Part shown: positions 18,942-39,722 of the stretch, one piece after another | Position numbering within the stretch: the first letter of the stretch is position 1 | Layout: each line of letters starts with the position of its first letter | Origin: Chthonomonadaceae bacterium | GTDB taxonomy: Bacteria; Armatimonadota; Chthonomonadetes; Chthonomonadales; Chthonomonadaceae | Assembly: GCA_025352825.1 (NCBI GenBank) | Contig: JANXSG010000233.1 | Location: forward strand, 1 to 40,528 | Direction of reading: 5' to 3' | Length of the DNA: 40,528 nucleotides | Notes under the pieces: model-generated | What the model was told of the DNA's origin: nothing | The model's database searches: none | Seen by the model: only the letters and a program-made list of their open reading frames with translations | Program-made: the position numbers and the translations under genes

Positions 18942-20089
18942 GAATCCTCCTGTCCGATGGAGACTTTAACGATGGGAGAATGTGTGTGAATGGACACTTT
19001 TCTATCCCGTAGGAAACCACCATTTCGCCGATTGAAAACCGCCTGTATTTCGGATACGATTGAGAGAGCAACCTCTTCTGCAGTTTCCGCACCTAAATCC
19101 AGACCAGTTGGTGTATGCAGTTTCATGCGATCCAAATCGTTCAGGGCAAAGCCTTCTTCCAGTAAATCGCCTTGCATCTGTTCCGTACGTTTTTTTGGGC
19201 CAAGTACTCCAATATAACCCACATCAGTAGTCAACAGATTTTTGAGCCATTCACGATCACGTTCGTAACTGTGCGTCATTGTGATTACTGCGGTGCGATC
19301 ATCGAATCGGATTTCCTCCTTCAACCGGTCTGGAACCAGCCGAATAGATTCAGGAAACTTATGAGCGTCGAGTAAAAAGTCTCTATGGTCGATTATTGTG
19401 ACATTCCAACCCAGAATCGCTGCAATCTGAGATAAAGGCACCGCATCATATCCTGCACCACATAGAATCAGTGAGATAGGGGACTGAACTGGTTCGATCA
19501 ATATCTCAGCTTGCCCTTTCCATCCAGGCAATGAAACAGTTTGGACTACCGGAATATTCTCTGTCCGCACTTTTTCAAGAGATGACTGCATATCGGACAA
19601 TATCAGATCATCCAGGACATCTCCGGCGAAATTATTTTGCCATCGATGCATTAATCTATACCCATCGCTGACCGTGCACCCACTTTCCGTCCGGAAAACT
19701 GTAGCGATGAATCCGGAACCACGTTCCTGTTCGAAACTTGCTATAAATTCTAAACTGTGGATTACACTAGAATTGATCGGTTCGACCAGTATCTCAATCG
19801 CACCACTGCAACCCATCTCCGTCACCGGGTCAAACCCGCTTCGGCTATCGTATCTTATCACACCAGGTGTGTTTGTCGTCATAATTTTTACTGCTCGTGC
19901 AGCCACATCTGCTTCTAAACATCCACCGCTAATCGTTCCCAATCGAAAACCATCGGAAAAAATTAACATTCTTGCGCCTGGGCGGCGATACGCCGAGCCT
20001 TCCACTTTAACCACCGTCGCAAGTGCGGCGGTGGTTAAAGTGGAGATATCTATTCTGCGTTCTGCAGCCATAGCTAGCAGATTAATCAT
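18923..20089 (-). CDS. XdhC/CoxI-family molybdenum-hydroxylase maturation factor
   Basis: 388 residues, preceded by AGGAGAAG. The N-terminal XdhC/CoxI domain contains TVVKVEGSAYRRPGARMLI and GTISGGCLEADVA, including the conserved GGC. The C-terminal Rossmann domain contains LILCGAGYDAVPLSQIAAILGW and ITMTHSYERD. XdhC proteins bind the molybdenum cofactor, protect it during sulfuration, and insert it in the Mo subunit. It lies 28 bases after the Mo-subunit gene and overlaps the mocA gene, so the operon has both final maturation steps. Confidence 0.93.
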   Translation of the reverse strand: MINLLAMAAERRIDISTLTTAALATVVKVEGSAYRRPGARMLIFSDGFRLGTISGGCLEADVAARAVKIMTTNTPGVIRYDSRSGFDPVTEMGCSGAIEILVEPINSSVIHSLEFIASFEQERGSGFIATVFRTESGCTVSDGYRLMHRWQNNFAGDVLDDLILSDMQSSLEKVRTENIPVVQTVSLPGWKGQAEILIEPVQSPISLILCGAGYDAVPLSQIAAILGWNVTIIDHRDFLLDAHKFPESIRLVPDRLKEEIRFDDRTAVITMTHSYERDREWLKNLLTTDVGYIGVLGPKKRTEQMQGDLLEEGFALNDLDRMKLHTPTGLDLGAETAEEVALSIVSEIQAVFNRRNGGFLRDRKVSIHTHSPIVKVSIGQEDSCLVLV

Positions 20090-20116
20090 AGACTCTTCTC
20101 CTGACTGATGTTACTC

Positions 20117-22234
20117 TTATCCGTCGCTCATGCCAGATCCAGGGAAGAAGGGAAGTGTGCGCACCCTGGTGCGTGTGAGCTTTGCATAGGCATTGGCTAC
20201 GGCCGGTGCAATTGGAGGTACTCCCGGCTCACCCACGCCTCCAATCGGGGCGCCGCTCTGGATGATTTTTACGGATACCACAGGAGCTTCCCGCATCAGT
20301 AATACGCGGTAGTTACTGAAGTTGCGTGCACTGGCGACTCCGTTTGTGAATTTGACTTCACCCCATAGCGCCGCACTCAGGCCGTGGAATATTCCACCTT
20401 GCATTTGAGCTTCAACGGAGTCTGGATTGATGGCGCTTCCGCAGTCAATGGCGACTGCCACTTTGTGCACTCTGATGGTACCTGCTGCTGGGTGGGATAC
20501 TTCTGCCACCTCTGCAACAATACTATTAAACGATGCAGCAAAAGCGATTCCTCGTGCGTGTCCCGCTGGAAGAGAGGTTCCCCATCCGCCTAGTTTGGCA
20601 GCCTCGTTGAGTACGTTCAGGCTTCGAGGATCGTTCGCTAGGAGTCTTTGTCTGAGCATCAGTGGATCAGTATTCGTCGCGAGGGCAACCTCATCTATCG
20701 CGCTTTCCACCACGAAGGCATTTATAGAGTGACCAACCGACCGCCAGAAACCGACAGGAACCGTGCCAGGATGCCGTACATACTCAGTCAGTCTGCTACC
20801 AAAGTTATAAGCTAACCCTGTTCCGCCTTCGGTCGACTGCGTGTCAACAACATTTCCGGGAATCCAACCGCGCTGAAATAGAATGGAAGGAGACACGATC
20901 CTGTTCGCCCAGCCTTTAATATTTCCCTGTGCATCCAGCGCTACTCGTACTCGTGCAAGTGCAAACGGCCGATACTGATCGTTCGCCATATCCTCTTCAC
21001 GAGACCATGTGAGTTTCACTGGCTTGCCGGCAGCCATCGCTACTTTTACTGCCTGTGCAATGTAGTCTTGTTCAATCTTGCGACCCAGCCCTCCGCCCAT
21101 TAAGGTGGGATGCACATTGATGCTGCTGGCTGGCATGTTTGTGAGAGCCATTACCGTTCCCAGCACCCAGCCTGGAGCCTGTGTGGGAGCCCAGACATCA
21201 CATCCTGTAGGTGATACCGATACTGTACAGCAAAGCACTTCCATACACGCGTGCGCAAGATACGGAAGTGTATAAGTCATTTCTAGAGTTTTTGCTGCCG
21301 TCTGGAATGCAGTAGTCACATCTCCCTGCTGTTCCGCAACAAGCGCCGGGCCATTTACCATCATCTGTTTGGCTTGTGTTATGTATAATGCAGTGTCGAC
21401 ACCAGCAGCAGAAGATGGAATATTCCAGATCACAGGAACGTTACTAACTGCACTTCTTGCCGCCTCAGTGGTAGTGGAAACGGCAGCTATAGCATTACCT
21501 AGATTGACGACTGCCCTTGAACCTGTTGCAGTTCTGACTGATTTAACCGTTCCCCCTACGGATGGACAGTGTTTGACTGCTGCAAATAGCATTCCCGGTA
21601 CGGTCACATCAATTCCGTAAATGGCGCTTCCGTTTGTTTTTGCAGGGATATCGGTTCTCTTAACTGGTGTTCCAACTAGCCGATATTCGGATGCAGGAAC
21701 AAGTGGTGGATTAGCTGGAACAGGCATGGAAGCAGCTAGTGTTGCCAATGAACCAAACGTGAGTGAATCGTTGGTGATTGTATTTATTACTTTGCCTTGC
21801 CTGGCAATACAGGTACTTGGTGGTACATTCCAGGTAGCAGCTCCTGCGGCAATCAGCATCTCACGAGCTGCTGCAGACGCTACTCTTAGAGGTTGTGCGT
21901 GAGCGCGAATGTTACTGCTACCTCCGGTAACCCAGGATTGAGCAGCTGGAGCAGGCTCCGCGCGAACCTGAGCCCAGTCAACCATCAGTTCTTCTGCGGC
22001 AACTTGTGCCAGGCCAGAATATGCGCCTTGACCCAGTTCAGAACCGCCTATCAAAATAGTGATGCTTTCATCTGTACTAATCTTAACCCAGGCGTTGACA
22101 GTGGGAGCTGCGCCAGCTGCATTCGCGGCCTTATTGCCGCCTTCAAGTGTAAAGGCCAAGAGAAAGCCTCCCGTTGTAGCTAAAAACTGACGACGGTCGA
22201 TTTTGACAGCTGGGAGTGTTGTTGTGTTTGACAT
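20117..22234 (-). CDS. Tat-exported molybdopterin subunit of an IorB-type aldehyde/isoquinoline oxidoreductase
   Basis: 705 residues, preceded by GGAG. An N-terminal twin-arginine signal (RRQFLATTGGFLLAF, residues 14-28) predicts export of the folded, cofactor-loaded enzyme. Motifs of the xanthine oxidase family Mo subunit follow: SELGQGAYSGLAQVAAEEL, GGGLGRKIEQDYIAQAV in the middle, and the C-terminal GVGEPGVPP containing the catalytic glutamate. Size and Tat signal fit the IorB/membrane-side aldehyde dehydrogenase group, not cytosolic xanthine dehydrogenase. Such enzymes oxidise aldehydes or N-heterocycles and pass electrons through the 2Fe-2S subunit to cytochrome c or the respiratory chain. 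The substrate is not determinable. Confidence 0.92.
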   Translation of the reverse strand: MSNTTTLPAVKIDRRQFLATTGGFLLAFTLEGGNKAANAAGAAPTVNAWVKISTDESITILIGGSELGQGAYSGLAQVAAEELMVDWAQVRAEPAPAAQSWVTGGSSNIRAHAQPLRVASAAAREMLIAAGAATWNVPPSTCIARQGKVINTITNDSLTFGSLATLAASMPVPANPPLVPASEYRLVGTPVKRTDIPAKTNGSAIYGIDVTVPGMLFAAVKHCPSVGGTVKSVRTATGSRAVVNLGNAIAAVSTTTEAARSAVSNVPVIWNIPSSAAGVDTALYITQAKQMMVNGPALVAEQQGDVTTAFQTAAKTLEMTYTLPYLAHACMEVLCCTVSVSPTGCDVWAPTQAPGWVLGTVMALTNMPASSINVHPTLMGGGLGRKIEQDYIAQAVKVAMAAGKPVKLTWSREEDMANDQYRPFALARVRVALDAQGNIKGWANRIVSPSILFQRGWIPGNVVDTQSTEGGTGLAYNFGSRLTEYVRHPGTVPVGFWRSVGHSINAFVVESAIDEVALATNTDPLMLRQRLLANDPRSLNVLNEAAKLGGWGTSLPAGHARGIAFAASFNSIVAEVAEVSHPAAGTIRVHKVAVAIDCGSAINPDSVEAQMQGGIFHGLSAALWGEVKFTNGVASARNFSNYRVLLMREAPVVSVKIIQSGAPIGGVGEPGVPPIAPAVANAYAKLTRTRVRTLPFFPGSGMSDG

Positions 22235-22245
22235 TATTACTCCAT

Positions 22246-22692
22246 TTATCCTTTGGCTGCCAAGTGAATGGCTGCACGAATACGTTGATAGGTACCGCAG
22301 ACACAGATGTTATCGATCTCGCCATCTATATCCGAGTCGCTGGGGTTTGGATTCTGTTGGAGCAGGGCTGCCGCTTTCATAATCATTCCAGACTGGCAGT
22401 AGCCACACTGTGGCACTTGTTCTTCTATCCAGGCTTTTTGCAGTGGGTGTGTTCCGGTGGGTGATAGACCTTCAATAGTTGTAATTTTACGTCCGACGCC
22501 CTCAGATACATCCATGTCACAGGATTTCTGTGCTTCTCCATCCAGCAGAATGGTACATGCGCCACAAATTTCTATGCCGCACCCGTATTTGGTACCAGTA
22601 AGTTGTAAAATGTCTCGCAGTACCCAGAGCATCTTAGTGCCAGGATCTACGTTTACGCTGTAGTTTTTCCCATTCACATTGAGTGAAATCAT
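22246..22692 (-). CDS. 2Fe-2S subunit of the molybdenum hydroxylase (IorA-type)
   Basis: 148 residues with a GGGAGGAT box at the start. The plant-type 2Fe-2S motif is [18 protein letters not shown] (about 37-54). The second, C-terminal cluster motif is CGYCQSGM ... [10 protein letters not shown] (about 97-137). This layout is standard for the small subunit of xanthine oxidase family enzymes. It has no signal peptide and would be exported bound to the Tat-carrying Mo subunit. It is first in the operon, 11 bases before the Mo-subunit gene. Confidence 0.94.
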
Positions 22693-22991: not shown

Positions 22992-23699
22992 CTAGAGTTC
23001 GGTGACTAACTGAGTGAGAGTCACAAATCGTGCCTCTTTCTTTTTTAGATAGTCTATTACGTGTTTCAGATTTTCAGCGTTATCTTTGCAATCGCACATT
23101 CCCAGGCTAAGCACAGAAAATTCAGCAAGATGGGAATCTATAATGGGCTTCAAATGATCAAATCCTTCATCAATATATCCACGAACTCCGTCGTTATTTG
23201 GTACTGGTACTACCCAGAGTTTAGAATTTCCTGACTGGTGCAGTTGATTTGGATTAGGATGGTAAGGAGTCTTGGGTGTGGATGCGGGAATTGAAGAACT
23301 TGAACCAGGGGTGGAATCGACCACAATACCGATATCTATCAGAGCGCTGAGGTCGCTTGCCTCGATATCCCCATTAGCAGCTCGGAATGCAGTGGGTTTT
23401 ATTGAGAACTGCTTCAGGATATCCTTTCCGATACGGATTAGATCTCCTCTGTCGACTGTGTTGCCTGCGCTAGAATCAAAAGTGATATGGAGACCAAGTT
23501 CGTGCCATGCGGGGATGCGATGGAGATATTCATTATGGTAAAGCTTAACATTTGACATTGGGTCGTGTTCGGCAACTCCCAGAAGCCACGTGAGCGGAAC
23601 ATTGAACTGCTCTGCAACTTCCACTACTTCCGTAACGTAGCATTTTCCTTCGTTAGCGCAGACACAGTCTACACTGATTGCAACAGTTGGTTTAGTCAT
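22992..23699 (-). CDS. NodB-like polysaccharide deacetylase-fold protein
   Basis: 235 residues with GGAGGAAG at the start and no signal peptide. ISVDCVCANEGKCYV holds the first Asp, LTWLLGVAEHD follows, and HELGLHITFDSSAG provides the H-x-x-G-x-H metal site of carbohydrate esterase family 4. FRAANGDIEASDLSALIDIGIVVDSTPG is the next conserved strand. The N-terminal DCVCANEG differs from the usual F-D-D and may change metal binding. Its substrate is unknown and could be a sugar or a urea/allantoin-type compound. It stands between two hairpin terminators as a single-gene unit. Confidence 0.78.
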   Translation of the reverse strand: MTKPTVAISVDCVCANEGKCYVTEVVEVAEQFNVPLTWLLGVAEHDPMSNVKLYHNEYLHRIPAWHELGLHITFDSSAGNTVDRGDLIRIGKDILKQFSIKPTAFRAANGDIEASDLSALIDIGIVVDSTPGSSSSIPASTPKTPYHPNPNQLHQSGNSKLWVVPVPNNDGVRGYIDEGFDHLKPIIDSHLAEFSVLSLGMCDCKDNAENLKHVIDYLKKKEARFVTLTQLVTEL

Positions 23700-23900: not shown

Positions 23901-24956
23901 TCAGGCAAAATGCTCACTGAACTCATCGAAGCCATCCCGAAGAGCGACTTTGGGGCTGACAGCCCCGATATTCTCTTCGAATGTCTGCAAGTTACCAAGA
24001 TTGGTCACACAGGTCTGGAAGATAGATTTGCCATCTGAACGTTTGGCGGTCATCACGTCGCGGATCACTGCGCGGCCAGGCATTCCGGAAGCCTTCAACT
24101 GAGCCATTCTTGCTGCATCTTTCGACATTTTCTCGTGTCCGTGTGCATTAATCTTCATTGCAGTCATGGAGATACCCGCTGAGCTAGCTTTTGCAAAAAT
24201 ATCTTTAACTTCGGTAGGATAGCCATAGCTGTACCAGACCTGCATAGAGGCAATAATGTCTGAATCGATGAGAGCCTGAATAATTCCAGGGTAGTTTTTA
24301 ATCTCTTCGGAATTACCATGATAGGGATGCTGAGAGACAGCGAAGAATTTTACTTTACCTTCTTTTTTAAGCCGAACGAAGGCTTTGTACGAGGTATTGT
24401 TCGCCTGCATTATCTTTTCAGGAGTATGCCATCCGTAGTGAGCACGGTAGACATCGTAGTATTTGAGGCCGTTTTTCTCAAGGGAAGAGGTCACCTGCCC
24501 GTATGCCTGGTCGTAATTGTCCGGATTTTGTCCTGGGGAGGTGTTGTCCACTGTAATATCAGTGTAGTAAGATTCTCTTGGCAGTTTGCGGATTTCCTCG
24601 GGGATAGCCTCAACGCTGTTCCAGTAACCGGCTTTATGAATAAAATTAATTCCCAGCGCAAGCGCTGGTGCGAAAAGCTCGCGATTCCAGTCCTGCGCCA
24701 TGCATACCGGAGTCACTTTCATATTTCCCATTTTAGCCCCTAACGAGCGTTTGGGTAGTTTGCCCAGGCTGTCAACAATAGCTTCTGCAGCCTCAGCTCT
24801 CTGACTTCGAGTAAGAGTCAAACCTGCGAGTGCGGCAGTCATCATTCCCGGTCCGGCGGCTGTCGCCACACTGAGAACACGCATAAATTCTCTGCGAGAA
24901 AGTGGTTTCTCCTGAGAAGGCGCTTTGAGCGCGTTAATTCGATCGTCTTGAAGCAT
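23901..24956 (-). CDS. Tat-exported aldo/keto reductase-like protein with altered active site
   Basis: 351 residues from the ATG at 24956 (AAAGGAG upstream). A Tat signal, LSRREFMRVLSVATAAGPGMMTAALAGLTL, covers about residues 19-50. The remainder follows the AKR TIM-barrel (LGAKMGNMKVTPVCMAQDWN, ALALGINFIHKAGYW, YYDVYRAHYGW, VKFFAVSQHP, MTAMKINAHG). The standard Asp of N-F-I-D-T-A is replaced (FIHKA), and no clear catalytic Lys is seen, though Tyr and the His of RAHYGW remain. It may thus be a binding protein or use another chemistry. It is preceded by an unknown gene and Uma2, and followed by a terminator. Confidence 0.8.
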   Translation of the reverse strand: MLQDDRINALKAPSQEKPLSRREFMRVLSVATAAGPGMMTAALAGLTLTRSQRAEAAEAIVDSLGKLPKRSLGAKMGNMKVTPVCMAQDWNRELFAPALALGINFIHKAGYWNSVEAIPEEIRKLPRESYYTDITVDNTSPGQNPDNYDQAYGQVTSSLEKNGLKYYDVYRAHYGWHTPEKIMQANNTSYKAFVRLKKEGKVKFFAVSQHPYHGNSEEIKNYPGIIQALIDSDIIASMQVWYSYGYPTEVKDIFAKASSAGISMTAMKINAHGHEKMSKDAARMAQLKASGMPGRAVIRDVMTAKRSDGKSIFQTCVTNLGNLQTFEENIGAVSPKVALRDGFDEFSEHFA

Positions 24957-25018
24957 GAGTAATCTCTCCTTTCGCACATATGTGCAGTCCATGGAAACAG
25001 TACATCAATAGTTATACC

Positions 25019-25402
25019 TTACGATTCAACAAACTTGTTAAAACCTCCTGCTACAGATCGATTATAAGATTCTTCAAACTCTGATGATGATAAAATCCTG
25101 TTGAGTCGAAAGAAAAGAGGGGCTGGCGCAAAGGATCGTTCCACTCCAACGCAATCACCTGTACGGGCATTGAAGGTTGCCGGCCAGGCTCCGTCATCAC
25201 CTTGCATCGTCTTCAATATATGCGCGACATGAAGTACAGCTCCGAGTGCGGTGGTATCGGCTTCGGTGATCGAATCAACCAGATTTGAAAGCGTACTAAT
25301 TACTTGCTCGGTATCGAGAATCTCACATTCAACATTCGGAAGCGGGAAACAGTTTCGACTCCATTCTGGAGGCGACCAGTGTATAACATCAACACTTGTC
25401 AT
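25019..25402 (-). CDS. Hypothetical 127-residue protein
   Basis: No family is recognised. The start is supported by TAGGA 8 bases before the ATG. The centre, LGAVLHVAHILKTMQGDDGAWPATFNARTG followed by SFAPAPLFFRL, resembles one helical hairpin of an alpha/alpha barrel such as prenyltransferase or glycosidase-like domains, which suggests a fragment or a single-repeat relative. It begins 19 bases after the Uma2 stop, so it is likely co-transcribed with Uma2 and the AKR-like gene that follows. Confidence 0.6.
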   Translation of the reverse strand: MTSVDVIHWSPPEWSRNCFPLPNVECEILDTEQVISTLSNLVDSITEADTTALGAVLHVAHILKTMQGDDGAWPATFNARTGDCVGVERSFAPAPLFFRLNRILSSSEFEESYNRSVAGGFNKFVES

Positions 25403-25421: not shown

Positions 25422-26063
25422 CTATATCATAAATAACGAATTCAGCGTGTCGAAAACATCAGGGCGAGGTTCTTGTAGTATCCACTCTGCCTGTAATGTC
25501 AAGTCAGGAATCGCAGTGAATGATACCGAACCTTTACTGATTACCGACTCCGAGTAACCATCTTCTTGGCGGCTCAAAATTCGGATTTCCTGCAACTGTA
25601 AATTAATAAAAACCAGCTCAGGAATACCCATCCGAAAGTATTCTGCTTCCAACTCTTGCAAATAAGTGGAACGATTGCTGGGAGAAATAACTTCAATAAT
25701 TAAGTCTGGTGCGCCATAAACTGCTTTCTGTTTCAGGATTTTTATGTTGTCCTGTCGCACGAAAAGTAGGTCTGGCATCCTTCCACCGAAATCATCGATT
25801 TTTATCATGACACGTGAGCTTAACATTCGACCGAGGTTTTTTTTGGATACATACGGCCCTACTACTTGATATAGCCAGCTTGTACACAATTCGTGGTCTA
25901 GTTGTATCATCGGTTTCTCCACAACGATGCCATTTACCAGTTCAACCCATTTTCCTGCAGCCATTTCCAGGAAAGTTTCGAAGGGGATAGCCCGATCGCC
26001 CACATGTACGATTCTAGCTTCTACGCTCTGTTCGGTTTGAGATTCTAGTAAAAGGTTTGCCAT
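25422..26063 (-). CDS. Uma2-family PD-(D/E)XK nuclease-like protein
   Basis: 213 residues. Family landmarks are YLEL-type strand WVELVNGIVVEKPM, LDHELCTSWLYQVVGPYV, the acidic core RMPDLLFVR and APDLIIEVISPSN, then YLQELEAEYFRMGIPELVFI. Most Uma2 proteins have a Lys four residues before the conserved Tyr and end in EYW; here these are Leu and ELVF, so cleavage activity is uncertain. It is an ungapped paralogue, roughly 60% identical, of the gene at 27187, and the two flank an aldo/keto reductase. Uma2 genes are numerous in cyanobacteria and Armatimonadota; their biological role is poorly known. Confidence 0.88.
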   Translation of the reverse strand: MANLLLESQTEQSVEARIVHVGDRAIPFETFLEMAAGKWVELVNGIVVEKPMIQLDHELCTSWLYQVVGPYVSKKNLGRMLSSRVMIKIDDFGGRMPDLLFVRQDNIKILKQKAVYGAPDLIIEVISPSNRSTYLQELEAEYFRMGIPELVFINLQLQEIRILSRQEDGYSESVISKGSVSFTAIPDLTLQAEWILQEPRPDVFDTLNSLFMI

Positions 26064-26122: not shown

Positions 26123-27112
26123 CTAATCCCAGATGGGGCGGCCATTGCGAGGATAGCTGGTAAGATCATTCAATCGGCTCATTTCGGCTATAGATAGTCG
26201 ATAGCCAACCGTACCACACAAGTCAGAAAGCTGTGCGATGGAGTTTGCGCCGAGAATGGGTGCCGTTATGGTGGGATTAGTGAGGAGCCAGGCAAGCGCT
26301 GTTTGAGCTACTGACTTATTATGGCTTTTCCCGATCTCATCGAGTGCATCGATGAGTGACCAGCCGCGATCATCACCAAATCTCTTTACATTGTTGTCAG
26401 CACGAACACTTTCAGGCTTGGGCTGATCTCGGCGATATTTGCCAGTTAAAAATCCACCAGCCAGCGGAGTGTAGTTGATGACTCCCAGACCATAATGCTT
26501 ACAGAGTGGCATAGCTTCCACTTCAAAGCTTGCCCGTTCCATAAGCGAGTATTCTGGCTGGAAACAGTCGAATCGAGCATACCCATTTATTTCTGAGGTC
26601 GCGATAGCTTCCATGAGTCTCCAAGCTGGATAGTTCGATGCCCCGATATAGCGTACTTTTCCAACGCGCACCAGATCATTTAGAGCACTGAGGGTCTCTT
26701 CGATGGGAGTATTCATGTCGGCCCAGTGGCACTGATACAGATCGATGTAGTCAGTTTTGAGGCGGATAAGTGAGTCGTCACATGCTTTTATGATATGACT
26801 TCGAGAAAGGCCTTCTCCGTTCGGCCCGGGCCACATATTTCCTCGTACTTTTGTAGCGAGGACTACCTCATGACGACCGCCGCGATTCTCAAGCCAACGC
26901 CCAATGATCTCCTCGCTTTTACCTGCATACGATGCTTCTCCCACCCAGGATGAGTAGATGTTGGCCGTATCGATAAAATTCCCGCCTGCCTCAAAAAAAG
27001 CGCTCATGACAGAGTGTGATGTGGCTTCATCCGCAGTCCAGCCAAACTGCATCGTTCCCAGACACAGTTCTGAAACGCGGAGTCCAGTTCTGCCCAATTT
27101 CTTATATTCCAA
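26123..27112 (-). CDS. Aldo/keto reductase
   Basis: 329 residues. A complete AKR: LGRTGLRVSELCLGTMQFGW, the catalytic Asp in GGNFIDTANIYSSW with Tyr following, the Lys in VVLATKVRG, and the His in DLYQCHWAD. The NADPH-binding end is APILGANSIAQLSDL. It is closest to the large AKR5-type group (YhdN/YajO-like). It reduces aldehydes or ketones with NADPH in the cytoplasm; the natural substrate is unknown. It lies between two Uma2 genes, spaced 59 and 74 bases. Confidence 0.93.
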   Translation of the reverse strand: MEYKKLGRTGLRVSELCLGTMQFGWTADEATSHSVMSAFFEAGGNFIDTANIYSSWVGEASYAGKSEEIIGRWLENRGGRHEVVLATKVRGNMWPGPNGEGLSRSHIIKACDDSLIRLKTDYIDLYQCHWADMNTPIEETLSALNDLVRVGKVRYIGASNYPAWRLMEAIATSEINGYARFDCFQPEYSLMERASFEVEAMPLCKHYGLGVINYTPLAGGFLTGKYRRDQPKPESVRADNNVKRFGDDRGWSLIDALDEIGKSHNKSVAQTALAWLLTNPTITAPILGANSIAQLSDLCGTVGYRLSIAEMSRLNDLTSYPRNGRPIWD

Positions 27113-27186: not shown

Positions 27187-27828
27187 TCAGTTAGCTAATA
27201 GCTCATTCAGTAGCGTACGCACATTTGGGCGTGGTTCGCTGAGAATCCAATCAGCTTGAAGAGTTAACTCGGGAATCGTTGAGAATGTGACAGGCCCCTC
27301 ATTTATTACTGTTTCCAGGTATCCGTTCTCCTCATGGCGAAGTAGTTGTATCTCCTTCTTCTGAAGATTAATAAAGATTAGTTCCAAGACGCCAAGACTA
27401 AAGTACTCCGCCTCTAGTTCCTGAAGATGTGACTTGCTATTTCCTGGAGATACAATCTCGATTATCAGATCAGGAGCACCAAATACTCCTTTCTGCTGTA
27501 CTATGTGCAGCCGATCCTGCCGAACAAATAGCAGGTCGGGCAGCCTGGCTCCAAACTCATCAGTTTTCACCATAATTCGCGAGCTTAGCATTAACCCAAG
27601 CTCTTTTTCTTGTAGATATGGTCCAATTATCTGATATAACCAGCTTGAGCAAAGTTCATGATCGAGTTGAATCATCGGTTTCTCCACCACCACACCGCGG
27701 CTCAGTTCCAGATAACGGCCATCAGCTAGAGTCAGGAAATGTTCGAATGGAATAGCCCGCTCACCTATATGTACTATGCGTGCTTCCACGTTCTGCTCAG
27801 TCTCTTTTTCGAGTAATGAATTCGCCAT
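27187..27828 (-). CDS. Uma2-family PD-(D/E)XK nuclease-like protein, second copy
   Basis: 213 residues, colinear without gaps with the protein at 25422. Conserved parts are YLELSRGVVVEKPM, RLPDLLFVR, APDLIIEIVSPGN and HLQELEAEYFSLGVLELIFI. As in its paralogue the usual Lys before Tyr is Leu. A small inverted repeat, TCTGATA/TATCAGA (27851-27870), lies just upstream of the start and may be its operator. The copies presumably arose by duplication that included or later trapped the AKR gene. Confidence 0.88.
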   Translation of the reverse strand: MANSLLEKETEQNVEARIVHIGERAIPFEHFLTLADGRYLELSRGVVVEKPMIQLDHELCSSWLYQIIGPYLQEKELGLMLSSRIMVKTDEFGARLPDLLFVRQDRLHIVQQKGVFGAPDLIIEIVSPGNSKSHLQELEAEYFSLGVLELIFINLQKKEIQLLRHEENGYLETVINEGPVTFSTIPELTLQADWILSEPRPNVRTLLNELLAN

Positions 27829-27888: not shown

Positions 27889-28804
27889 TTAGCGGATTGT
27901 TACACATCTAAAACCGAGGCCAAAGTATGTTTGATCTGGCGGATACTTGTGGCGATTGGCGCAGCGAAAATCAACAGAAAACATGCCAAACCACGATCCG
28001 CCTCTGAGTACACGTAATTTCTGCTCACCGATGTTTCGGTTTTCAGGGTTCTGGTCACATGCGATTCGACTGCTATAAAACGTTGGATCGTACCAGTCAC
28101 TGCACCACTGCCATATGTTTCCAACCATATCAAATGCACCATAGGGACTAACTCCAGCAGGGAAACTACCCAGGGGTTTAGGTACCACCCGCATCGCCGA
28201 ATTTAGTCGTTGAGCACAAGAGATTGTATCTATCGAACTCGTTACCCCAAGGATAAATTCTAGAGTCGGTACCGCGTGCAGCTTTCTCCCACTGTGCTTC
28301 CGTAGGAAGTTTCACTCTTGCCCGGGTACAATAGGCCAATGCATTAATGTACGAAACATTCACGATAGGGTGGTCTCTATACATCCAGTTCGGGTTGAAT
28401 GTAGGTGGCAGAGGCTTTCTATAGCCAGTAATATAGCAAAAGTGCAGATACTGAGAGACCGTGACAGGGGTTCGGTAGATGTAGTATCCATCCAAAGTTA
28501 CCTTATGGATCGGTTTTTCCGGTTCATAATCGATGCTTCCCATGGTGAACTCACCTGCCGGTACGTAGACCATCTCCGCACCGTCGTATGGGTTCTTCCT
28601 GACCACTGTGTCGAATTGAGTACTCTGTTTTAATGTGAGGCCAAGATGCATCTCCTGCACCACATCTCCAAAATACTCTTCCCAGGCATCCCGTTTCATC
28701 CGGCCGGCTGCTGTTTCCGGGGTACCAAGAAGAGTTCCTAATCGCGCACTGCCCATCATTTTGCTTTGGAATGCATCCACCGACAGCCCAGCATCTGCCG
28801 AAGC
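27889..28804 (-). pseudogene. FGE-sulfatase (SUMF1-like) domain, 3' part of broken cytochrome-FGE gene
   Basis: This frame continues directly from the TAG at 28805-28807. After a helical linker comes a formylglycine-generating-enzyme/SUMF1-type domain: MVYVPAGEFTMGSIDYEPEKP, VTLDGYYIYRTPVTVSQYLHF, HPIVNVSYINALAYC, LPTEAQWEKAARG. Near 28180 one extra base shifts the frame: FGDAGGT continues as KPLGSFPAGVSPYGAFDMVG and then NIWQWCSDWY, LRGGSWFG and FGLGFRCVTI. All hallmark blocks are present once the frame is repaired. Such domains act as oxidases (FGE) or as structural, metal- or sugar-binding modules. The usual copper-site cysteines of true FGE cannot be confirmed. It ends at 27889. Confidence 0.85.
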
Positions 28805-30287
28805 CTAGCTAATATCGACCGTCGAGTCATACCGCCCTTGCAGTGCATAGATCGGTTCGCGAACGGTTACTTCCGCGCCTGTCTCCCGAACAGCGGCAGC
28901 AAATCGTTTTGCATCCTCGTCCAGTGCAGCCATCCATCTTCGGCTTTTCGATGTAGAGAGCAAGCGCATGATCTCGGTCGTAGCCGGACTGATCTTTCGG
29001 GAGTGCAGAGATGATCGGACGCAATACATCGTAAAACCGCTTTACTCCTTGCGAATGGCAGCTCATGCAGGTCAGACCATTCCGTACGATGGGGTCGTTG
29101 ATATTCTCTTTGTTGCTGACAATATCGATGGGGCCAGCGTCGATGCGTTTACCACTATCGTTTACGAGCATATAAGCCTGCAAACCGTTCGGAAGGTTGA
29201 AGATGATCTCGCCGCCTGCCGGCTCGAATGAGAGCGGATTCTTGAAGATGTTCTGCTTTCCGGAGATGCTTCTGAAATCGTAGGATCGCCAGTAAGCTCG
29301 GTAGGTCGATTCATGGCGATCCACGACCCGGTTGTTGCGCGATATACCGCTCTCCTGCAGCCCTGCACGAATAGCAGTCTCCTCTTTCACATTCTTCTCG
29401 ACATCTACGCCCAGTTTCGCTTCCAGTTTCCCTGCGGTATCGGGCATATCAAGCAAATCATGATAGAGTGGCGGCACAGCAGCTCTGGAGACAAACCAGT
29501 CGGCGCGGAGATAGGGTAGGGAGCAGTTGGTGGCGGTATAGATGGATTTCGCAGGTTCCGACTTCGATATGATGACGTAGGGATAGGCTGCGAGAAGTTT
29601 CTGCCAGGTCTGCTCTGTCCAGGAGAACTTCCTCAGATCGATACGAAGGATGGTTTTACCAGTATCGATCGGTTCCGGAACAGCTATTCTCTTCTGCCAG
29701 GAGAGGCTGTTAAGCAGTTTTGATAGTCCTACTCGAAACGCCTGAATATCGTCTTCTGTGGCACCTTCATTGGCAAGGTGCGTAAGGGTGAAGTAGCGGA
29801 GGTAGGCGCGGTCTCGTTCGTTGGCATGGTTCAGGTCGGCTTCAATTACTTGAAGCATATCGGTTTCACTCATGAATTTGTGCTGGGAGGAGGGATTATT
29901 AGCAACTGGTTGAAGCGCACCAGCTTCAATCCATGCTTTGAGCGTTGCTGTTTCACTTTCGCTGAGGGGGTTATTCTCATTTCTTGGAGGCATTGGGTCG
30001 CCGGGAGATTTGGCAGCGCGGATAAATATTCTCGATTCGCCTGGTTTCCCGGGAATCAGAAACCCGTTATCGATCATGGTTTTATAGTTGTGGAAGTTAA
30101 AACCAGCTGTTTTAACTTCACCGTGGCACTTGCCGCAATGCTTTTCCATAATAATGTAGGCTTTGGAAGTTAAATCGCTGTTCTGATTTTTTTGTATTGG
30201 CTGAATCTTATACGATATAGCTGCCAAAATTGGCATGCATAGACCGGATATACATAAACTCAGTGGGATAATAGTTCGGTTATTCAT
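28805..30287 (-). pseudogene. Exported multi-heme cytochrome c, 5' part of broken cytochrome-FGE gene
   Basis: Start ATG at 30287, or GTG three codons earlier. A signal peptide is followed by a planctomycete-type cytochrome c domain: CGKCHGEVKTAGFNFHNY near residue 50, with PMPPRNENNPLSESETATLKAWIEAGA. A long middle region of unknown family precedes a second heme motif, NGLTCMSCHSQGVKRFYDVL. Near 28930 one extra G shifts the frame: IEKPKMD continues as AALDEDAKRFAAAVRETGAE. It then reaches TAG at 28805-28807 (ISTAG-ASADAG, probably once CAG) and would run on in frame into the FGE part. Three lesions therefore split one large periplasmic cytochrome-FGE protein. Other genes here clearly use TAG as stop, so recoding is unlikely. 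Confidence 0.85.
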
Positions 30288-30334
30288 GGTCTGCACAGTC
30301 TTTTATACAGGAAGTCGATAAAATAGATATGAAG

Positions 30335-30408: not shown

Positions 30409-32463
30409 TTACTGTGTTGGATTGGGATTGTAAGTTCCCTGCGGGGATGCGGCGCCTTGAGGTCCTTCTAGATCGATATGCATCTGGAACTCTTTCTTTG
30501 TGGGATCGTAGAATTTATCTTTGCCGATATCTTTTCTTGTATCCCAGCCGTTTCTCCAGAAGCCATCCAATGGATGTTCTTTCGGCTCTATATAAGCGCG
30601 ATCTTCCTGGAATGTGTAGACCACAATCGAGTGATCGGGAAGAACGGGGCAGTGATATTCGCAGATACCGCATCCAGTGCAGAGCTTTTCGTCGACTGTT
30701 GGAACACGCTTAACACGGCCTTTATTTCCATTCGCTGAAATGGGCTGAGTCTCATCTTTAGCGAGAGTGTCGTCGAAAGTGTCCTTAAAAATAACTGCTG
30801 AATAAGGGCATACCTCGGCACAGACGATACAGTCTCTGCCGCCGTTCCACGCAACACAGGTCGAGCGGTTGACGTTGGCAAGACCCATCTTGATCTTGTA
30901 GCGCTTATCCTGCCAGGTGAACGGACGAATAGCGCCAGTAGGGCAGACATCGCCGCAGCTGGTACACTTCTCCGCACAAGGGCCGATGCTTGGAACCAGG
31001 ATAGGTGTCCAGATTCCCTGCATACCGGTTTCGAGGAAGGCTGGCTGCAGCGCGTTGGTAGGGCAGACTTTCATACACTCCGCACAACGTGTACATGCGG
31101 AAAGGAATTCGCTTTCTGCCAGCGCTCCCGGCGGGCGCATAGATTTATTGTTGTGGTGGTACCGTCGCATTGACCCCTGATACTCGCTGGCACTTCCCTT
31201 CATGGCGCTGCCCCAGAGCATTCCTGCTCCCAGGGCGCCAATAACTCGTCTTCTCCCCAGATCGATCTGTGTCTGCGGTTCTGGGCGGGGGCCGGTGTTT
31301 TTGGCCGCCATTCCAAGCGCCTCTTTGATGCCAGCAGGAACCCTGGCCTGTATCTGGATGACATCTGTAGGGCATATTGTCTCGCATCGGAAGCACTGGA
31401 TACATTCGCTGATGCTGTGCATCTCTTCCTGCTTTGCGTTTTTTTCCAGGTTATCGTAGCAGCCCATGCGCGATTGTAGTTCGCACTTTTTACAGTGTAT
31501 GCAGCCGTCCATCTGGATATAGTGGCGCAGCCAGGATACTCGGGAAACTACCGCCAGCAGGCCGCCATACGGGCATAGGTTTCGACACCAGAACCGCTCT
31601 TGATATCCCGAGAGCCCGATTACCGCCATGAACATCAGCAGTACAGGAATACCATTCCAGTAAGTGAGGTTCTGCATGCGCCAGGCGTCCATATTGCCGC
31701 CCAGGTTGTAGATGGCGTGACCAATACCCACACCCTCCCCAACATTGAGAATGCCGTTCCAGATGTAGGCGATAGGAGCATAGAAACAGAATGTGAAGGT
31801 GCGTGTGATGAGTGAGATCGGATCGCCGAAGGTGAGAATATCTACACCAAAGACAATCGCTCCCAAGCCTACCAGAAGATAGATATATTTCCAGTTGCGA
31901 AAACGTTTCGCGTCGGATCGTTTCTTAGTATAGAACAGTCGTCCTTTGCGGAAAAGCAGCTTATCGCCGATATCGATTGCTGTCCCAAGAGGGCATATCC
32001 AGCCGCAGAATATTCGTCCACCCCATAGAGTCAGGAGAAGTATGAAAATGCCAGGGCCGAGTGCGTAGATTGCAATATGATGGGAGGCAATGCCGTTTTT
32101 GAGCGTGTTAAGGAAGTCGAGAGTCATGAAGAGGTTCTTCGGAACCCCGCCCCACATTTGGCTTGTGGCGGTGGTGAGGAAGAAGAACAGGACGAAAAGC
32201 AGGAATGTGACTATCTGTACAGAACGCCGAATGAAAACGATACGATGGGAGGCAGGATTTCCAGGCGCCTCTTTCATCTTACGTTTCTGTTCTGCAGTGA
32301 AGCGAGCGTTCGCGCTGCCACAGCTCCCATTTTCACGGCCTATATCTTCACTGCGCACCAAGCCTATATCCGCCATTCGCACGAGCGTTTTATCGGGCAC
32401 TGGATTTTTCTTACCGATATTGATTCCCAGTCTTCGAGGGAACTCCTGAGGCATGTCCGACAT
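30409..32463 (-). CDS. NapH/NapG-like polyferredoxin membrane protein
   Basis: 684 residues from the ATG at 32463 (GGAG upstream); the longer frame to 32589 would overlap the ParB gene. The N-terminal half is a NapH/CcoG/NosR-like membrane module with about four to five helices, CGWICPLG and CRNLCPYGG loops, and 4Fe-4S motifs CIHCKKC and CIQCFRCETICP. The C-terminal half is NapG-like, with a Tat-like RRRVIGALGAGML segment and four more 4Fe-4S motifs: CTRCAECMKVCP, CTSCGDVCP, CIVCAEVCP and CTGCGICEYHCP. NapH and NapG are normally separate subunits that carry quinol electrons to periplasmic reductases; here they are fused. No reductase is adjacent. Neighbours are ParB-like, DUF362 and DUF6599 genes, the last two exported. 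Confidence 0.9.
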   Translation of the reverse strand: MSDMPQEFPRRLGINIGKKNPVPDKTLVRMADIGLVRSEDIGRENGSCGSANARFTAEQKRKMKEAPGNPASHRIVFIRRSVQIVTFLLFVLFFFLTTATSQMWGGVPKNLFMTLDFLNTLKNGIASHHIAIYALGPGIFILLLTLWGGRIFCGWICPLGTAIDIGDKLLFRKGRLFYTKKRSDAKRFRNWKYIYLLVGLGAIVFGVDILTFGDPISLITRTFTFCFYAPIAYIWNGILNVGEGVGIGHAIYNLGGNMDAWRMQNLTYWNGIPVLLMFMAVIGLSGYQERFWCRNLCPYGGLLAVVSRVSWLRHYIQMDGCIHCKKCELQSRMGCYDNLEKNAKQEEMHSISECIQCFRCETICPTDVIQIQARVPAGIKEALGMAAKNTGPRPEPQTQIDLGRRRVIGALGAGMLWGSAMKGSASEYQGSMRRYHHNNKSMRPPGALAESEFLSACTRCAECMKVCPTNALQPAFLETGMQGIWTPILVPSIGPCAEKCTSCGDVCPTGAIRPFTWQDKRYKIKMGLANVNRSTCVAWNGGRDCIVCAEVCPYSAVIFKDTFDDTLAKDETQPISANGNKGRVKRVPTVDEKLCTGCGICEYHCPVLPDHSIVVYTFQEDRAYIEPKEHPLDGFWRNGWDTRKDIGKDKFYDPTKKEFQMHIDLEGPQGAASPQGTYNPNPTQ

Positions 32464-32545
32464 CGTGCTCACTCTCCTATTACTATCAAAACGTACATCA
32501 TTAAAAATATATCTGTTTTTGTGAACCGCGAAAAACAGAGGTTTC

Positions 32546-33325
32546 TCACGAAGTTTGCTTGACACTCTGCTGTGTCTGGAACGCTGCAATCATACTGGCA
32601 ACCGCAGGCTTTAGAACATCTGGAATTTGGGAGCAGTCGAACGGACATCGACGTGAAGAAACAACAGCAAAAGCACCTTCGGATGCCTGGTTTATCACTG
32701 CCTGCAGATTCTCTAAATTCGGTTCGATTCGTTTGATGGCTGCAATCTGGACATCCTGAGTAAGACCATCCAGCTTATCCCAAACAACGATCTGCTTCTG
32801 CGTATCCTCAAATCGCTTCGAGAGCCGAATCATCGCTTCTGTATGGCTGGCATCTCCAGAAGATATCCTCTCCTGAAGTTCAGGCGCCAGATCCAGCAGT
32901 TTGATATACTTCCGGATCGTTGCCGTTCCAATTCCAGTCTCATTACTCACCGACTGAACGTCGCCCAACCTGTCCAGTAATGATCTAAACGCAACTGCTT
33001 TATCATGCGGGTTCATATCGGCGCGGTGCACATTTTCAACGAGCGACAGCGCTTTTGCATCTGACTCATCAACTCCGAAACGAACAACCGCTGAAATAGT
33101 GTTCCATCCGAGTCTACGGCACGCCATCAGCCTCCGTTGTCCGGCGATGGCACCAAACCTTCCTTCAGGTTTTTCAAATACCGTAATGGGGCTGAGCAAC
33201 CCCTGTTTTTCAATACTTCGAGCCAGATCCTGGAGACTGCTGTCATCCTCACCAAACCCCAGCTCCTTGCGCGTGTTGTAGTCGGATATATCGACCAGCG
33301 ATAACGGAATCTCTTTTACAATCAT
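32546..33325 (-). CDS. ParB/Spo0J-type CTPase-fold DNA-binding protein, solitary
   Basis: 259 residues. The ParB N-domain begins EIPLSLVDISDYNTR and contains GAIAGQRRLMACRRLGW (G-x-R-R-type CTP box) and SLVENVHRADMNPHDKAVAF, followed by the helix-turn-helix VQSVSNETGIGTATIRKYIKLLD. No ParA partner is present. The C-terminal part (ASEGAFAVVSSRRCPFDCSQIP) is unlike the chromosomal ParB dimer domain. Solitary ParB-like proteins act in plasmids, transcription regulation, or nucleoid functions such as Noc. It lies in the middle of a redox gene cluster, so a regulatory role there is plausible. GGAGA precedes the start. Confidence 0.88.
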   Translation of the reverse strand: MIVKEIPLSLVDISDYNTRKELGFGEDDSSLQDLARSIEKQGLLSPITVFEKPEGRFGAIAGQRRLMACRRLGWNTISAVVRFGVDESDAKALSLVENVHRADMNPHDKAVAFRSLLDRLGDVQSVSNETGIGTATIRKYIKLLDLAPELQERISSGDASHTEAMIRLSKRFEDTQKQIVVWDKLDGLTQDVQIAAIKRIEPNLENLQAVINQASEGAFAVVSSRRCPFDCSQIPDVLKPAVASMIAAFQTQQSVKQTS

Positions 33326-33358
33326 AGCTGTTCTCCATTGGAATAAATGGTTCCCTTA

Positions 33359-33382
33359 TTCTTAGAATGGATTTGCTAAGAA
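33359..33382. promoter_or_regulatory. Small inverted repeat before the ParB-like gene
   Basis: TTCTTAG (33359-33365) and CTAAGAA (33376-33382) surround 10 bases, 34 bases before the ParB start. It may be an autoregulatory site or a weak terminator of the DUF362 gene. Confidence 0.3.
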
Positions 33383-33433
33383 GGTAACCAGGTGTCCTGG
33401 AGTTCAACTTCCTGTGCCTTACCGATTGTCGCC

Positions 33434-34465
33434 TTAGGAGCCTACTGGGCCAGCGATCTCTTTGATATTGAGCTGTGAGGTATCTATTTGGCCGCGGCCC
33501 AGACTGTTCGCAAGCACCAGATGGTTCACCGCATCGGGTGTCACCCCTTTGACTGTCAGAAACTGGCAGCAGTAGGAGTCAAGCGCGACCGGATCGATCC
33601 CTGCGAGCACCTTATGGGGCGTGGTGACTTCGCCGGGGCCTTTTGGGCCTCGAGTCTGCAGAGCACGGGTGGCATCGGTCACGATCAAGGTTGGTTTGAT
33701 AAACATGTTCAGCTCGGCAATACAGTCGTGCAGACCGTAGCGGTGATAGTCTTTTCTGTTCCATATACAGCCCATCAGCTTCTTCATAGCGATGGTGATA
33801 ACAGCTGCCTCGTGATCTTTGACGACGGGATTAACTATGAAACAGTCTGCCTCGATGATATCGCGCGGGATCTTCTGCTCAATCTGATTGAAGTGGTGGC
33901 GGGCATCGTAGGCCTTGCCATCTGTGGTTACTTTCGGCACTGCGGAAGGAATGTCAACATCCTTATGCATATTAGCGGAGTCGGGTGAGATTAGCGATGC
34001 CATGGTACCTTTGACAGCGCCATTCGCTCCGCATATCTCGAAAGCCATTTTCCAATCATCGAGAGTATAGTCGATGCAGGTGATTCGTGAAGCTCCCGCA
34101 CGCTGACACAACTGCACTAAGCGTCGAAGCACATCCGGGTGGGTGGCAGCAGCTTGCTCGGGAGTGCGCATCCAGCCCATATTCGGTGTGATAACTACCT
34201 TATCACCCTTCTTCACAAACATTTCTATGCCGCCAAGTTCATTAATAGCACGCTCGGTAATATCGCCATATGTTTGTGGATTTCCTTCTACACAGACGAT
34301 GTCAGGAGTGGTGAGAGAGGCCTTGGTTGCTGACCGAATTTTTGTCGGCTTAGCGAAATCCTGGTTCTTAAAGAAACTGAGACCGTAGACTCCGCCCAGG
34401 ACAGCGGTGCCTCCAGCCACTTCCAGAACCTTACGCCGGGAAATTTTATGCTCTTCGTCTGCCAT
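33434..34465 (-). CDS. Tat-exported DUF362 protein
   Basis: 343 residues with TAGGAG before the ATG. A Tat signal, SRRKVLEVAGGTAVLGGVYGL, covers residues 9-29. The body has DUF362 landmarks: GDKVVITPNMGW, HPDVLRRLVQLCQRAGASRI, DCFIVNPVVKDHEAAVITIAMKKLMG, TLIVTDATRALQTRGP and KVLAGIDPVALDSYCCQFL. DUF362 is often next to ferredoxin-type proteins and is thought to bind a cofactor or Fe-S partner; its activity is not established. Co-oriented with DUF6599 upstream (a repeat element intervenes) and the Fe-S membrane protein downstream, it may be a periplasmic redox component. Confidence 0.88.
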   Translation of the reverse strand: MADEEHKISRRKVLEVAGGTAVLGGVYGLSFFKNQDFAKPTKIRSATKASLTTPDIVCVEGNPQTYGDITERAINELGGIEMFVKKGDKVVITPNMGWMRTPEQAAATHPDVLRRLVQLCQRAGASRITCIDYTLDDWKMAFEICGANGAVKGTMASLISPDSANMHKDVDIPSAVPKVTTDGKAYDARHHFNQIEQKIPRDIIEADCFIVNPVVKDHEAAVITIAMKKLMGCIWNRKDYHRYGLHDCIAELNMFIKPTLIVTDATRALQTRGPKGPGEVTTPHKVLAGIDPVALDSYCCQFLTVKGVTPDAVNHLVLANSLGRGQIDTSQLNIKEIAGPVGS

Positions 34466-34492
34466 ATTAACTTTCTCCTAACCGAATATTTA

Positions 34493-34625
34493 CCTAACCC
34501 CTGGCCCCCTTCCCTGATTCCCTCGTTCCTCGGAGGGATGGGGAACTTCTGGTTGGAACTCTCCCCTTCCCAAGTGCAAAGAGTTTTATCGTTTGCGCGG
34601 GCGGGGAAGGGGTTGGGGGTTAGGG
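34493..34625. repeat. Second-type MITE-like repeat between DUF6599 and DUF362 genes
   Basis: Left end CCTAACCCCTGGCCCCCTTCCC; right end CTCCCCTTCCC ... CGGGGAAGGGG then TTGGGGGTTAGG, forming terminal inverted repeats. The right half contains an inner stem of the GCAAA...TTTATCGTTTGCG kind shared with the 6792-6858 copy. The element begins 12 bases beyond the DUF6599 stop and occupies the spacer of two genes likely once in one operon. Confidence 0.72.
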
Positions 34626-34636
34626 AATAACTCTAT

Positions 34637-35584
34637 CTATTTAGTGCGCGCGACTGCAGCCTTAACTAACGCCGCTGCAGCATTTTTATCTTTGGCTTTA
34701 CGGATAGCGATGAGATATTTTCCTTTCACAGCGGCAACTATCTCTCCAGAAAATTTTGTTTTTACTTCAATCGCCTGATCACCAATGCCGGGTACAGGGG
34801 CGACTTTCGATCCGACTGCGAGTGTTTTGGGATCGGAAAGGTAGGTTTTATACTTGTTGAATGCATCTTTGCAGGCGGCAGGAGAGGCTACCTGGATGAT
34901 GAAGAGTTCGGCCATAGAACCGGCTGATGGGTATTTAGCGACTACCCCGTTTTTAAGAAAGACCTGGCCGGCAATATCGGAGCGCTGGTACTTATCAGTC
35001 TTAGGTGAAAAGCCAGGTGGCAGCATATTCAGCATCGGAGGTGTGGCGCTCGAACCGCTAAGTTTTGCCGCAACCGCCTGTGCAATCTGCGGCAGAGCCT
35101 GCTGAAAGGCGGGCGTCGGGTTCATAGCGGTGATAGCGATACGCACATAGTACGCACCCTTCCAGAAGTTGAGGGCGGTCTTCTCCTGATATGCCTCAGC
35201 ACCGATTTTGAGATATTTAGCATGCGCGTTTCGCTGGCCGGCGTAGTAGCCAAAGGCGTCCAGCGGGCTGCCCATTTGGAACACATCGACAGTAATGAAC
35301 TGGTTGCCCTTGCCTCCCTGGGCAAATTCTGCATATGCGCATTCGCGAAAATCGTACTGCTTAAAAGCCTGAGCTTCGCCATCAACATGGTTTTCGAGGT
35401 CGCCCTGCTTATAGATGAAAGGGGCCTTGGTGGTTTTCCAGATTCCTACGGATGCTGGTATTGAACTTTTAGTATCGGCTTTTGCGACAGGTATCGACAC
35501 TCTTGAGAGGATGGCACAATTTGCCACCAATAGTGTCAAAGATCGAGCGATCCATAATTTGCTAACCTTGAAACGAAACGACAT
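34637..35584 (-). CDS. Exported DUF6599 protein
   Basis: 315 residues with CAGGAG before the ATG. A signal peptide spans about residues 1-36 (WIARSLTLLVANCAIL ... KADTKS). The body follows the DUF6599 pattern: IYKQGDLENHVDGEAQAFKQYDF, a strand with VDVFQMGSPLDAFGYYAGQR, IGAEAYQEKTALNFWKGAYYVRI, and a second copy-like half (QVFLKNGVVAKYPS ... IPGIGDQAIEVKT). The family's function is unknown. It often occurs beside DUF362 and NapH-like Fe-S proteins, as here, and so may belong to the same periplasmic system. Confidence 0.85.
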   Translation of the reverse strand: MSFRFKVSKLWIARSLTLLVANCAILSRVSIPVAKADTKSSIPASVGIWKTTKAPFIYKQGDLENHVDGEAQAFKQYDFRECAYAEFAQGGKGNQFITVDVFQMGSPLDAFGYYAGQRNAHAKYLKIGAEAYQEKTALNFWKGAYYVRIAITAMNPTPAFQQALPQIAQAVAAKLSGSSATPPMLNMLPPGFSPKTDKYQRSDIAGQVFLKNGVVAKYPSAGSMAELFIIQVASPAACKDAFNKYKTYLSDPKTLAVGSKVAPVPGIGDQAIEVKTKFSGEIVAAVKGKYLIAIRKAKDKNAAAALVKAAVARTK

Positions 35585-39369: not shown

Positions 39370-39597
39370 TCATGCGTGAAAGTCAACTCGATTTACTACG
39401 GCTTTGTTCGCTTCGACCCGATTTGCAACGGGATTGAAAGTTGCTCGATTTGCCACAGCAGTGCCAGCTTCCACGCGATTTGCAACATTCGTATTGACTA
39501 TGCGATTGGTTACGCTATTATTTCGCTCAACTCGATTTGCAACCGCATTGAACTGAATGCGATTGCTGGACTGCGTGTCGATACCAGTAATTGTCAT
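39370..39597 (-). CDS. 75-residue protein of 19-residue tandem repeats
   Basis: Start at the ATG at 39597, supported by AAAGGGG 7 bases upstream; the longer frame to 39717 crosses a terminator. After a 12-residue lead (MTITGIDTQSSN) come three units of the form N-R-x-x-x-N-x-V-A-N-R-V-E-x-x-x-x-V-x and a final partial NRVDFHA. Each unit is 57 bases. There is no signal peptide, cysteine or membrane helix. Regular N-R/V-A spacing hints at a small beta-solenoid or fibre-like fold. No family is recognised. Strong terminators on both sides make it an independent transcription unit, so it is likely expressed alone. Confidence 0.7.
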   Translation of the reverse strand: MTITGIDTQSSNRIQFNAVANRVERNNSVTNRIVNTNVANRVEAGTAVANRATFNPVANRVEANKAVVNRVDFHA

Positions 39598-39684
39598 GAT
39601 GGATCCCCTTTCCCTCTGAAAGGCGACACGCAGAATAGTTATCGGAAATACCGGATATTCACATAACTGTTCACAATACCAGAA

Positions 39685-39722
39685 AAAAAATGAGTTGTGC
39701 GAATTCGCACAACTCATTTTTT
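39685..39722 (-). terminator. Strong intrinsic terminator of the prepilin-like gene
   Basis: TGAGTTGTGCGAA pairs perfectly with TTCGCACAACTCA, with A-run before and T-run after, so it functions in both directions. It lies 30 bases after the stop at 39752. Confidence 0.88.

Follow-up and report, generated by a model that had tools for sequence, protein, structure and literature searches.

This analysis concerns a group of genes in contig JANXSG010000233.1 (positions 1 to 40,528; hereafter the window, meaning the whole 40,528-nucleotide stretch) of the Chthonomonadaceae bacterium assembly GCA_025352825.1. Four genes lie head to tail on its minus strand, encoding in the direction of reading a DUF6599 protein (34637..35584), a DUF362 protein (33434..34465), a ParB/Noc-like protein (32546..33325) and a NapH–NapG fusion of 684 amino acids (30409..32463), a membrane polyferredoxin for which we use the published name polytopic polyferredoxin (PFD). 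A preliminary description had grouped these genes, with a cytochrome–FGE gene downstream, as a candidate undescribed redox system, and all of the genes that it named were recovered on the minus strand from the open reading frames (ORFs) and from Pfam and NCBIfam profiles. The DUF6599, DUF362 and PFD genes form a real, linked module.

The polyferredoxin and its exported neighbours

The PFD reading frame is open from 32589 to 30409. Its likely start is the ATG at 32463, which has an AGGAGAG box in front of it and agrees with the relatives. Within one chain, NapH first, the NapH profile matches residues 100–276 and the NapG profile residues 460–659 of the ORF. Both NCBIfam matches are partial (NapG, E 1.6e-28; NapH, E 1.9e-25) and miss the equivalog cut-offs (99.6 versus 269 bits for NapG, and 89.5 versus 234 bits for NapH). 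The cysteines fall into two C-x3-CP motifs and six four-cysteine sets, two in the tail of the NapH half and four in the NapG half, bearing out an earlier count of about six 4Fe-4S motifs and fitting about seven [4Fe-4S] clusters. The internal twin-arginine motif RRRVIGALGAGMLWG (31201..31254, minus strand) is followed by the predicted transmembrane domain (TMD) 5, residues about 404–421. The twin arginine (R325-R326) directly before the last TMD is invariant in an eight-sequence alignment (A1), and an arginine pair with a hydrophobic stretch is present at 72 of the 80 PFD loci collected below.

Judged by its sequence, the window fusion belongs to the kind of protein published by Tooke et al. 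2017 (PMC5449189) as PFD, with which it shares the NapH–NapG fusion, the five TMDs, the twin arginine before TMD5 and the motifs for seven clusters. The relevant passages of that paper call the MLMS-1 protein Q1NSB0 a NapH–NapG fusion; they give it five TMDs, the last one preceded by a twin arginine, and predict seven [4Fe-4S] clusters, of which three would be cytoplasmic and four external. They also report, from MLMS-1 reporter fusions, that its TMD region depends experimentally on twin-arginine translocation (Tat), in a dual Sec/Tat insertion. That work deals with membrane insertion, however, and the same passages give no partner, substrate or gene neighbourhood; DUF362 is absent from the paper. 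The fusion itself is a published family, and what is undescribed is the linked module around it. Both halves are also homologous to NapGH of periplasmic nitrate reduction, and the electron route proposed below is alike; in contrast to NapGH, the window protein is one fused chain below the equivalog cut-offs, has DUF362 as its partner and has no NapA, NapB or NapC nearby. None of the genes napA, napB and napC was found among the window ORFs or as a recurrent member of the relatives' operons, and no reductase subunit lies beside the block, as had been remarked from the sequence.

The DUF362 protein matches PF04015 over profile positions 1–200 of 200 (E 4e-42; 145 bits, where the cut-off is 24) and carries the Tat motif SRRKVLEVAGG, in keeping with the export first proposed for it; a Tat signal is present in all 46 PFD-linked DUF362 sequences (46/46). 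At about 30% identity to the window protein, this set keeps invariant R10 and R11 of the Tat motif and N95, K216, H218, K228, G232, R237, H241, D264, G273, P274 and D296, with a site pattern K-x-H-x9-K...H. Sequence comparison turned up no relative with a solved structure for either DUF362 or DUF6599. In the AlphaFold2 model of DUF362 (pLDDT 89.5), a LarA fold is predicted: compared with the PDB, the model matches the LarA family (lactate/malate racemases and LarA-like nickel-pincer enzymes) with Z 15.9–18.8 over about 208 residues, the superposition spanning residues 60–307, whereas the next fold scores Z 5.2. DUF362 and the LarA domain belong to one Pfam clan (CL0471; PMC11770544), and the window protein shares with LarA the predicted fold and an H-x9-K spacing. 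It differs from the LarA superfamily members in several ways: identity is about 13%, the match is confined to the first part of LarA, the protein is Tat-exported and has no racemase context, and the ATGTH histidine motif is, by eye, missing; in addition, the genes for the nickel-pincer nucleotide (NPN) are not in every carrier. The Lar_N profile (PF09861) has no match among the 46 DUF362 members.

The DUF6599 protein (PF20244, E 5e-46) has an N-terminal hydrophobic signal, as expected of the exported protein first proposed. Its AlphaFold2 model (pLDDT 93.5) is a predicted tandem of two PsbP/LpqN/Mog1-like domains, with VIA-align Z scores of 12.4 to the PknH ectodomain, 10.9 to TiME, 7.5 to LpqN and 6.4 to PsbP; the Foldseek E-values are weak, and the likeness holds at the fold level only. 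Each half of DUF6599 matches the PsbP, LpqN and PknH-ectodomain folds (Z up to 12.4), but without sequence similarity, and DUF6599 differs from them in being a tandem and in being linked to, or fused with, PFD. On its model, DUF6599 looks like a PsbP/LpqN-type accessory protein.

Conservation of the block and its surroundings

Co-occurrence of the three genes, proposed earlier as the point to check, was confirmed from two independent baits. The first was DUF6599, whose family is present in 62 of the 151 genomes of the window's phylum; in the flanks fetched for 60 sites, DUF6599, DUF362 and the NapH–NapG fusion stand together in 18 further phylum genomes, and DUF6599 and DUF362 without PFD at 20 more phylum loci. 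At four PFD-less pairs (L066, L068, L047 and L071), GH127, GH116, GH130 or sulfatase genes adjoin, a hint of sugar chemistry. The second bait was the fusion, run blind to DUF362 against a collection of species genomes, which returned 80 loci: in 63 of them DUF362 lies on the same strand no more than 2.5 kb away, and in 21 so does DUF6599, each time with DUF362. Among the 17 loci without DUF362, seven start less than 1 kb from a contig end and two (L150 and L155) resemble other proteins.

Carriers of DUF362 with PFD come from about 15 phyla, so that the genes are not scattered in relatives. By their record titles they span Acidobacteria, Deltaproteobacteria/Desulfobacterota, Nitrospirae, Caldithrix, KSB1, Aminicenantes, Omnitrophota, Neomarinimicrobiota, SAR324, Spirochaetes, Myxococcales, Planctomycetota, Zixibacteria, Hydrogenedentes, Chloroflexi, Gammaproteobacteria and Armatimonadetes; one carrier, Geomonas sp. 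Red32 (L171), is a named isolate. In two Bryobacterales a single ORF encodes NapH, NapG and DUF6599, the last as the C-terminal domain (L152:5939-7984 and L158:2960-4978). In addition, across 54 pairs the distances among DUF362 proteins covary with those among their PFD proteins (r 0.77; the highest value under permutation was 0.21), a correlation that shared descent also raises.

Scanning 90 flanking proteins against Pfam revealed no fixed extra operon member across phyla, and no family occurred more than four times; the only recurrent extra neighbours are proteins like aldo/keto reductases (AKRs; a cluster of 18 genes) and radical S-adenosylmethionine (SAM) enzymes (four loci). The four radical SAM genes beside PFD and DUF362 (L114:10223-11449, L118:3679-4794, L122:10182-11432 and L112:2241-3395) are of the AmmeMemoRadiSam type, three by scan (TIGR04337, 359–385 bits) and that of L122 by similarity, and carry Tat or lipoprotein-like signals; at L114 a Memo–AMMECR1 fusion follows. 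Export of a radical SAM enzyme from the cytoplasm would be odd.

In the window, homologues of the partner genes continue on the minus strand beyond the end that the preliminary description had set for the unit. A soluble AKR (26123..27112; PF00248, E 1.5e-78) has the D-Y-K-H tetrad intact and scores 578 bits to a homologue that adjoins PFD at L053. Farther on stand a 127-residue protein (25019..25402) with no Pfam or NCBIfam match, whose homologues lie downstream of PFD at 10 phylum loci, and a Tat-exported AKR-like protein (23901..24992; PF00248, 30.8 bits). Orthologues of the latter directly follow PFD in nine relatives (L036, L045, L046, L051, L053, L054, L059, L063 and L067), where a protein of about 120 residues usually precedes them; the window counterparts of this pair are read from 25402 to 25019 and from 24992 to 23901. 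The next gene (22992..23699), without a Pfam match, has homologues that stand right behind the Tat-exported AKR-like gene in two relatives (372 bits to L053 13336-14307 and 352 bits to L036 2038-2787). Because its catalytic Asp and Lys are replaced in the window's lineage and the tetrad is thereby lost, the Tat-exported protein of the window is probably not a normal AKR; exported AKRs of other phyla keep D-Y-K-H and add a C-terminal cysteine-rich or Fe-S region. Such Tat-signalled AKRs, with an intact tetrad and the C-terminal cysteine-rich (Fe-S) region, lie beside PFD or DUF362 at L096, L111, L121, L144, L152, L154, L162, L168 and L169, and would sit in a compartment without NADPH.

Other genes of the window block are insertions or remnants. 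The ParB-like gene (PF02195 and HTH_ParB) does lie inside the block, between DUF362 and PFD, as first remarked, but is not a component of the module: it occurs there only in the window and in genus g4 (L055, L056 and L097), and members of the same family (G022, G126, G007 and G108) have the block without it. Nor is it solitary in the chromosome, since the genome has two other ParB genes. The downstream cytochrome c (PSCyt1)–FGE gene (27889..30296, minus strand; PF07635 and PF03781) proved to be neither intact nor conserved; its cytochrome, FGE and FGE-tail parts stand in three frames (30296-28827, 28780-28178 and 28194-27889), it has no homologue in the relatives' loci, and it is either a pseudogene or the product of assembly frameshift errors. 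We rejected it as a component. Two similar Uma2 genes (27187..27828, between the PFD and AKR genes, and 25422..26063, both minus strand; PF05685) flank the soluble AKR gene and are insertions, absent at this place from all relatives' loci. Elsewhere in the window, a molybdenum hydroxylase-like set was recognized by eye at 18336-22692 (two oxidoreductase subunits and XdhC-like and MobA-like genes), and a small ORF at 39370-39717 is built of degenerate ANRVE/VNR-type repeats.

A candidate electron path and its alternatives

We give about even chances to the reading that the module transfers electrons across the membrane between the quinone pool, PFD and the exported DUF362 protein. The NapH half of PFD, with four helices and cytoplasmic [4Fe-4S] clusters, would exchange electrons with the quinone pool, and the electrons would reach the extracytoplasmic side through the four clusters of the NapG half, which would itself be exported by Tat. 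On that side, Tat-exported DUF362 would be the catalytic partner, reducing (or oxidizing) a small molecule at the K-x-H-x9-K...H site, with DUF6599 as an extracytoplasmic accessory docked on PFD. The Tat-exported AKR-like protein would take care of a step or substrate related to this one, and the variable clients of the module may be AKR-like or radical SAM proteins. We infer quinol oxidation by the NapH half by analogy with NapGH, whose homologues act as quinol dehydrogenases according to the passages of PMC5449189 that bear on them. That DUF362 is the terminal acceptor or enzyme, as had been suggested, is plausible in view of its universal Tat signal, invariant polar residues and predicted LarA fold, and the presence of exported AKR and Fe-S proteins in the same operons supports the electron-transfer reading. 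The linkage seen with either bait, the PFD–DUF6599 fusions, the covarying distances and the published Tat dependence of the PFD TMD region speak for it as well.

Several observations weigh against it. The DUF362 partner has no Fe-S motif of its own, which leaves the electron entry point unclear. DUF362–DUF6599 pairs with another DUF362 subtype occur at 20 phylum loci without PFD, so the pair can do without it; conversely, PFD has no visible DUF362 at about eight loci with enough flanking sequence. In the window itself, ParB, two Uma2 genes and a broken gene interrupt the block, and the distal genes would be less well co-expressed as a result.

Alternatively, DUF362 and DUF6599 could help to assemble, or insert cofactors into, either the exported Fe-S half of PFD or the exported AKR and radical SAM enzymes, with neither of the two being the terminal enzyme. 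We regard this as unlikely. The two proteins are constant while the other partners vary (Tat-AKR with Fe-S, Tat-signalled radical SAM with Memo/AMMECR1), and DUF6599 resembles accessory folds such as PsbP and LpqN; however, an invariant polar site in a LarA-type fold combined with a strict Tat signal suggests an enzyme whose cofactor is folded in within the cytoplasm, and at most loci DUF362 is the partner in the absence of the other enzymes.

The direction of flow, which is not readable from sequence, could also be the reverse, with DUF362, the exported AKR or both oxidizing an extracytoplasmic substrate and electrons entering the quinone pool via PFD. The carbohydrate-related genes beside the DUF362–DUF6599 pair in several genomes give a hint of sugar oxidation, but they adjoin only the PFD-less subtype, and NapGH homologues act as quinol dehydrogenases (PMC5449189). 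We consider reverse flow improbable.

A more specific proposal, which we consider rather doubtful, is that DUF362 is an exported NPN enzyme like LarA, with PFD supplying or removing electrons for a net redox reaction; K228 would hold the cofactor, and H218 and H241 would be the catalytic and nickel-ligand histidines. The predicted fold (Z 16–19) agrees with this, as does the H218-x9-K228 spacing, which equals H-x9-K of the genome's own LarA (EPHFMAGYSGGRK). A local HHalign comparison aligns H218 and K228 with the His and Lys of LarA, but at a very low probability (0.3), so that the residue match rests on spacing and fold; the global HHalign alignment of DUF362 with LarA is meaningless. Genes for LarA, LarB and LarC are present in the window's genome, and LarC is found in 18 of 18 phylum carriers versus 94 of 133 other phylum genomes (p 0.003, uncorrected for kinship). 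LarC of the window's family is in two separate halves, encoded on different contigs (G000:C207:2699-3433 and G000:C160:5197-5607), and is one piece in the rest of the order.

Among 50 carriers of other phyla, by contrast, 11 lack LarC, and eight of these 11 also have no LarB above the cut-off. Most carriers are metagenome assemblies, in which some absences of LarB or LarC may be gaps; the strongest of the eight cases is CP070707.1 (G197), a single-record chromosome titled 'chromosome'. Six of the LarB/LarC-less genomes are represented in the DUF362 alignment, and all six have the identical site. Because the site is unchanged in carriers without LarB and LarC, it is not there for NPN only. The general DUF362 motif does not differ in proteins that are not known to be linked to NPN, which also counts against the proposal. 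We therefore reject NPN as an obligatory cofactor, given the eight of 50 carriers without LarB and LarC, and regard it as a possible one.

Chance adjacency of unrelated genes, which the unrelated insertions in the window block (ParB, Uma2 and the broken FGE gene) might suggest, is refuted by the DUF362–PFD order kept across phyla, the PFD–DUF6599 fusions and the conservation of the block in 18 genomes, and has virtually no chance of being correct.

Novelty and biological meaning

PFD and DUF362 are each already known names, and the module that joins them is undescribed in the literature searched. No paper was found on DUF6599, the DUF362 papers searched do not treat this system, and nothing was found on NapH with a polyferredoxin and AKR, on a Tat-signalled 4Fe-4S AKR or on periplasmic NPN. 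New here are the exported DUF362 protein as the conserved partner of PFD, its predicted LarA fold with an invariant site, the accessory-like DUF6599 and the extension by Tat-AKR.

PFD has been known since 2017 to need two translocases, with its client left open, and the exported LarA-fold protein is a concrete candidate for that partner. Through the module, the large and unassigned DUF362 family would find its place in respiration, and DUF6599 would gain a role. It is a long shot that these proteins are a widespread family of exported oxidoreductases with the LarA fold, which may hold a nickel-pincer or other tethered cofactor and are coupled to the quinone pool by a polyferredoxin with Sec/Tat dual insertion; if true, respiration would be a new use for this fold, which has until now been characterized only in racemases and epimerases. 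Finally, the Tat-signalled AKR and radical SAM proteins raise the question of how enzymes that as a rule depend on NADPH or SAM could function once exported; an electron wire like PFD might stand in there.

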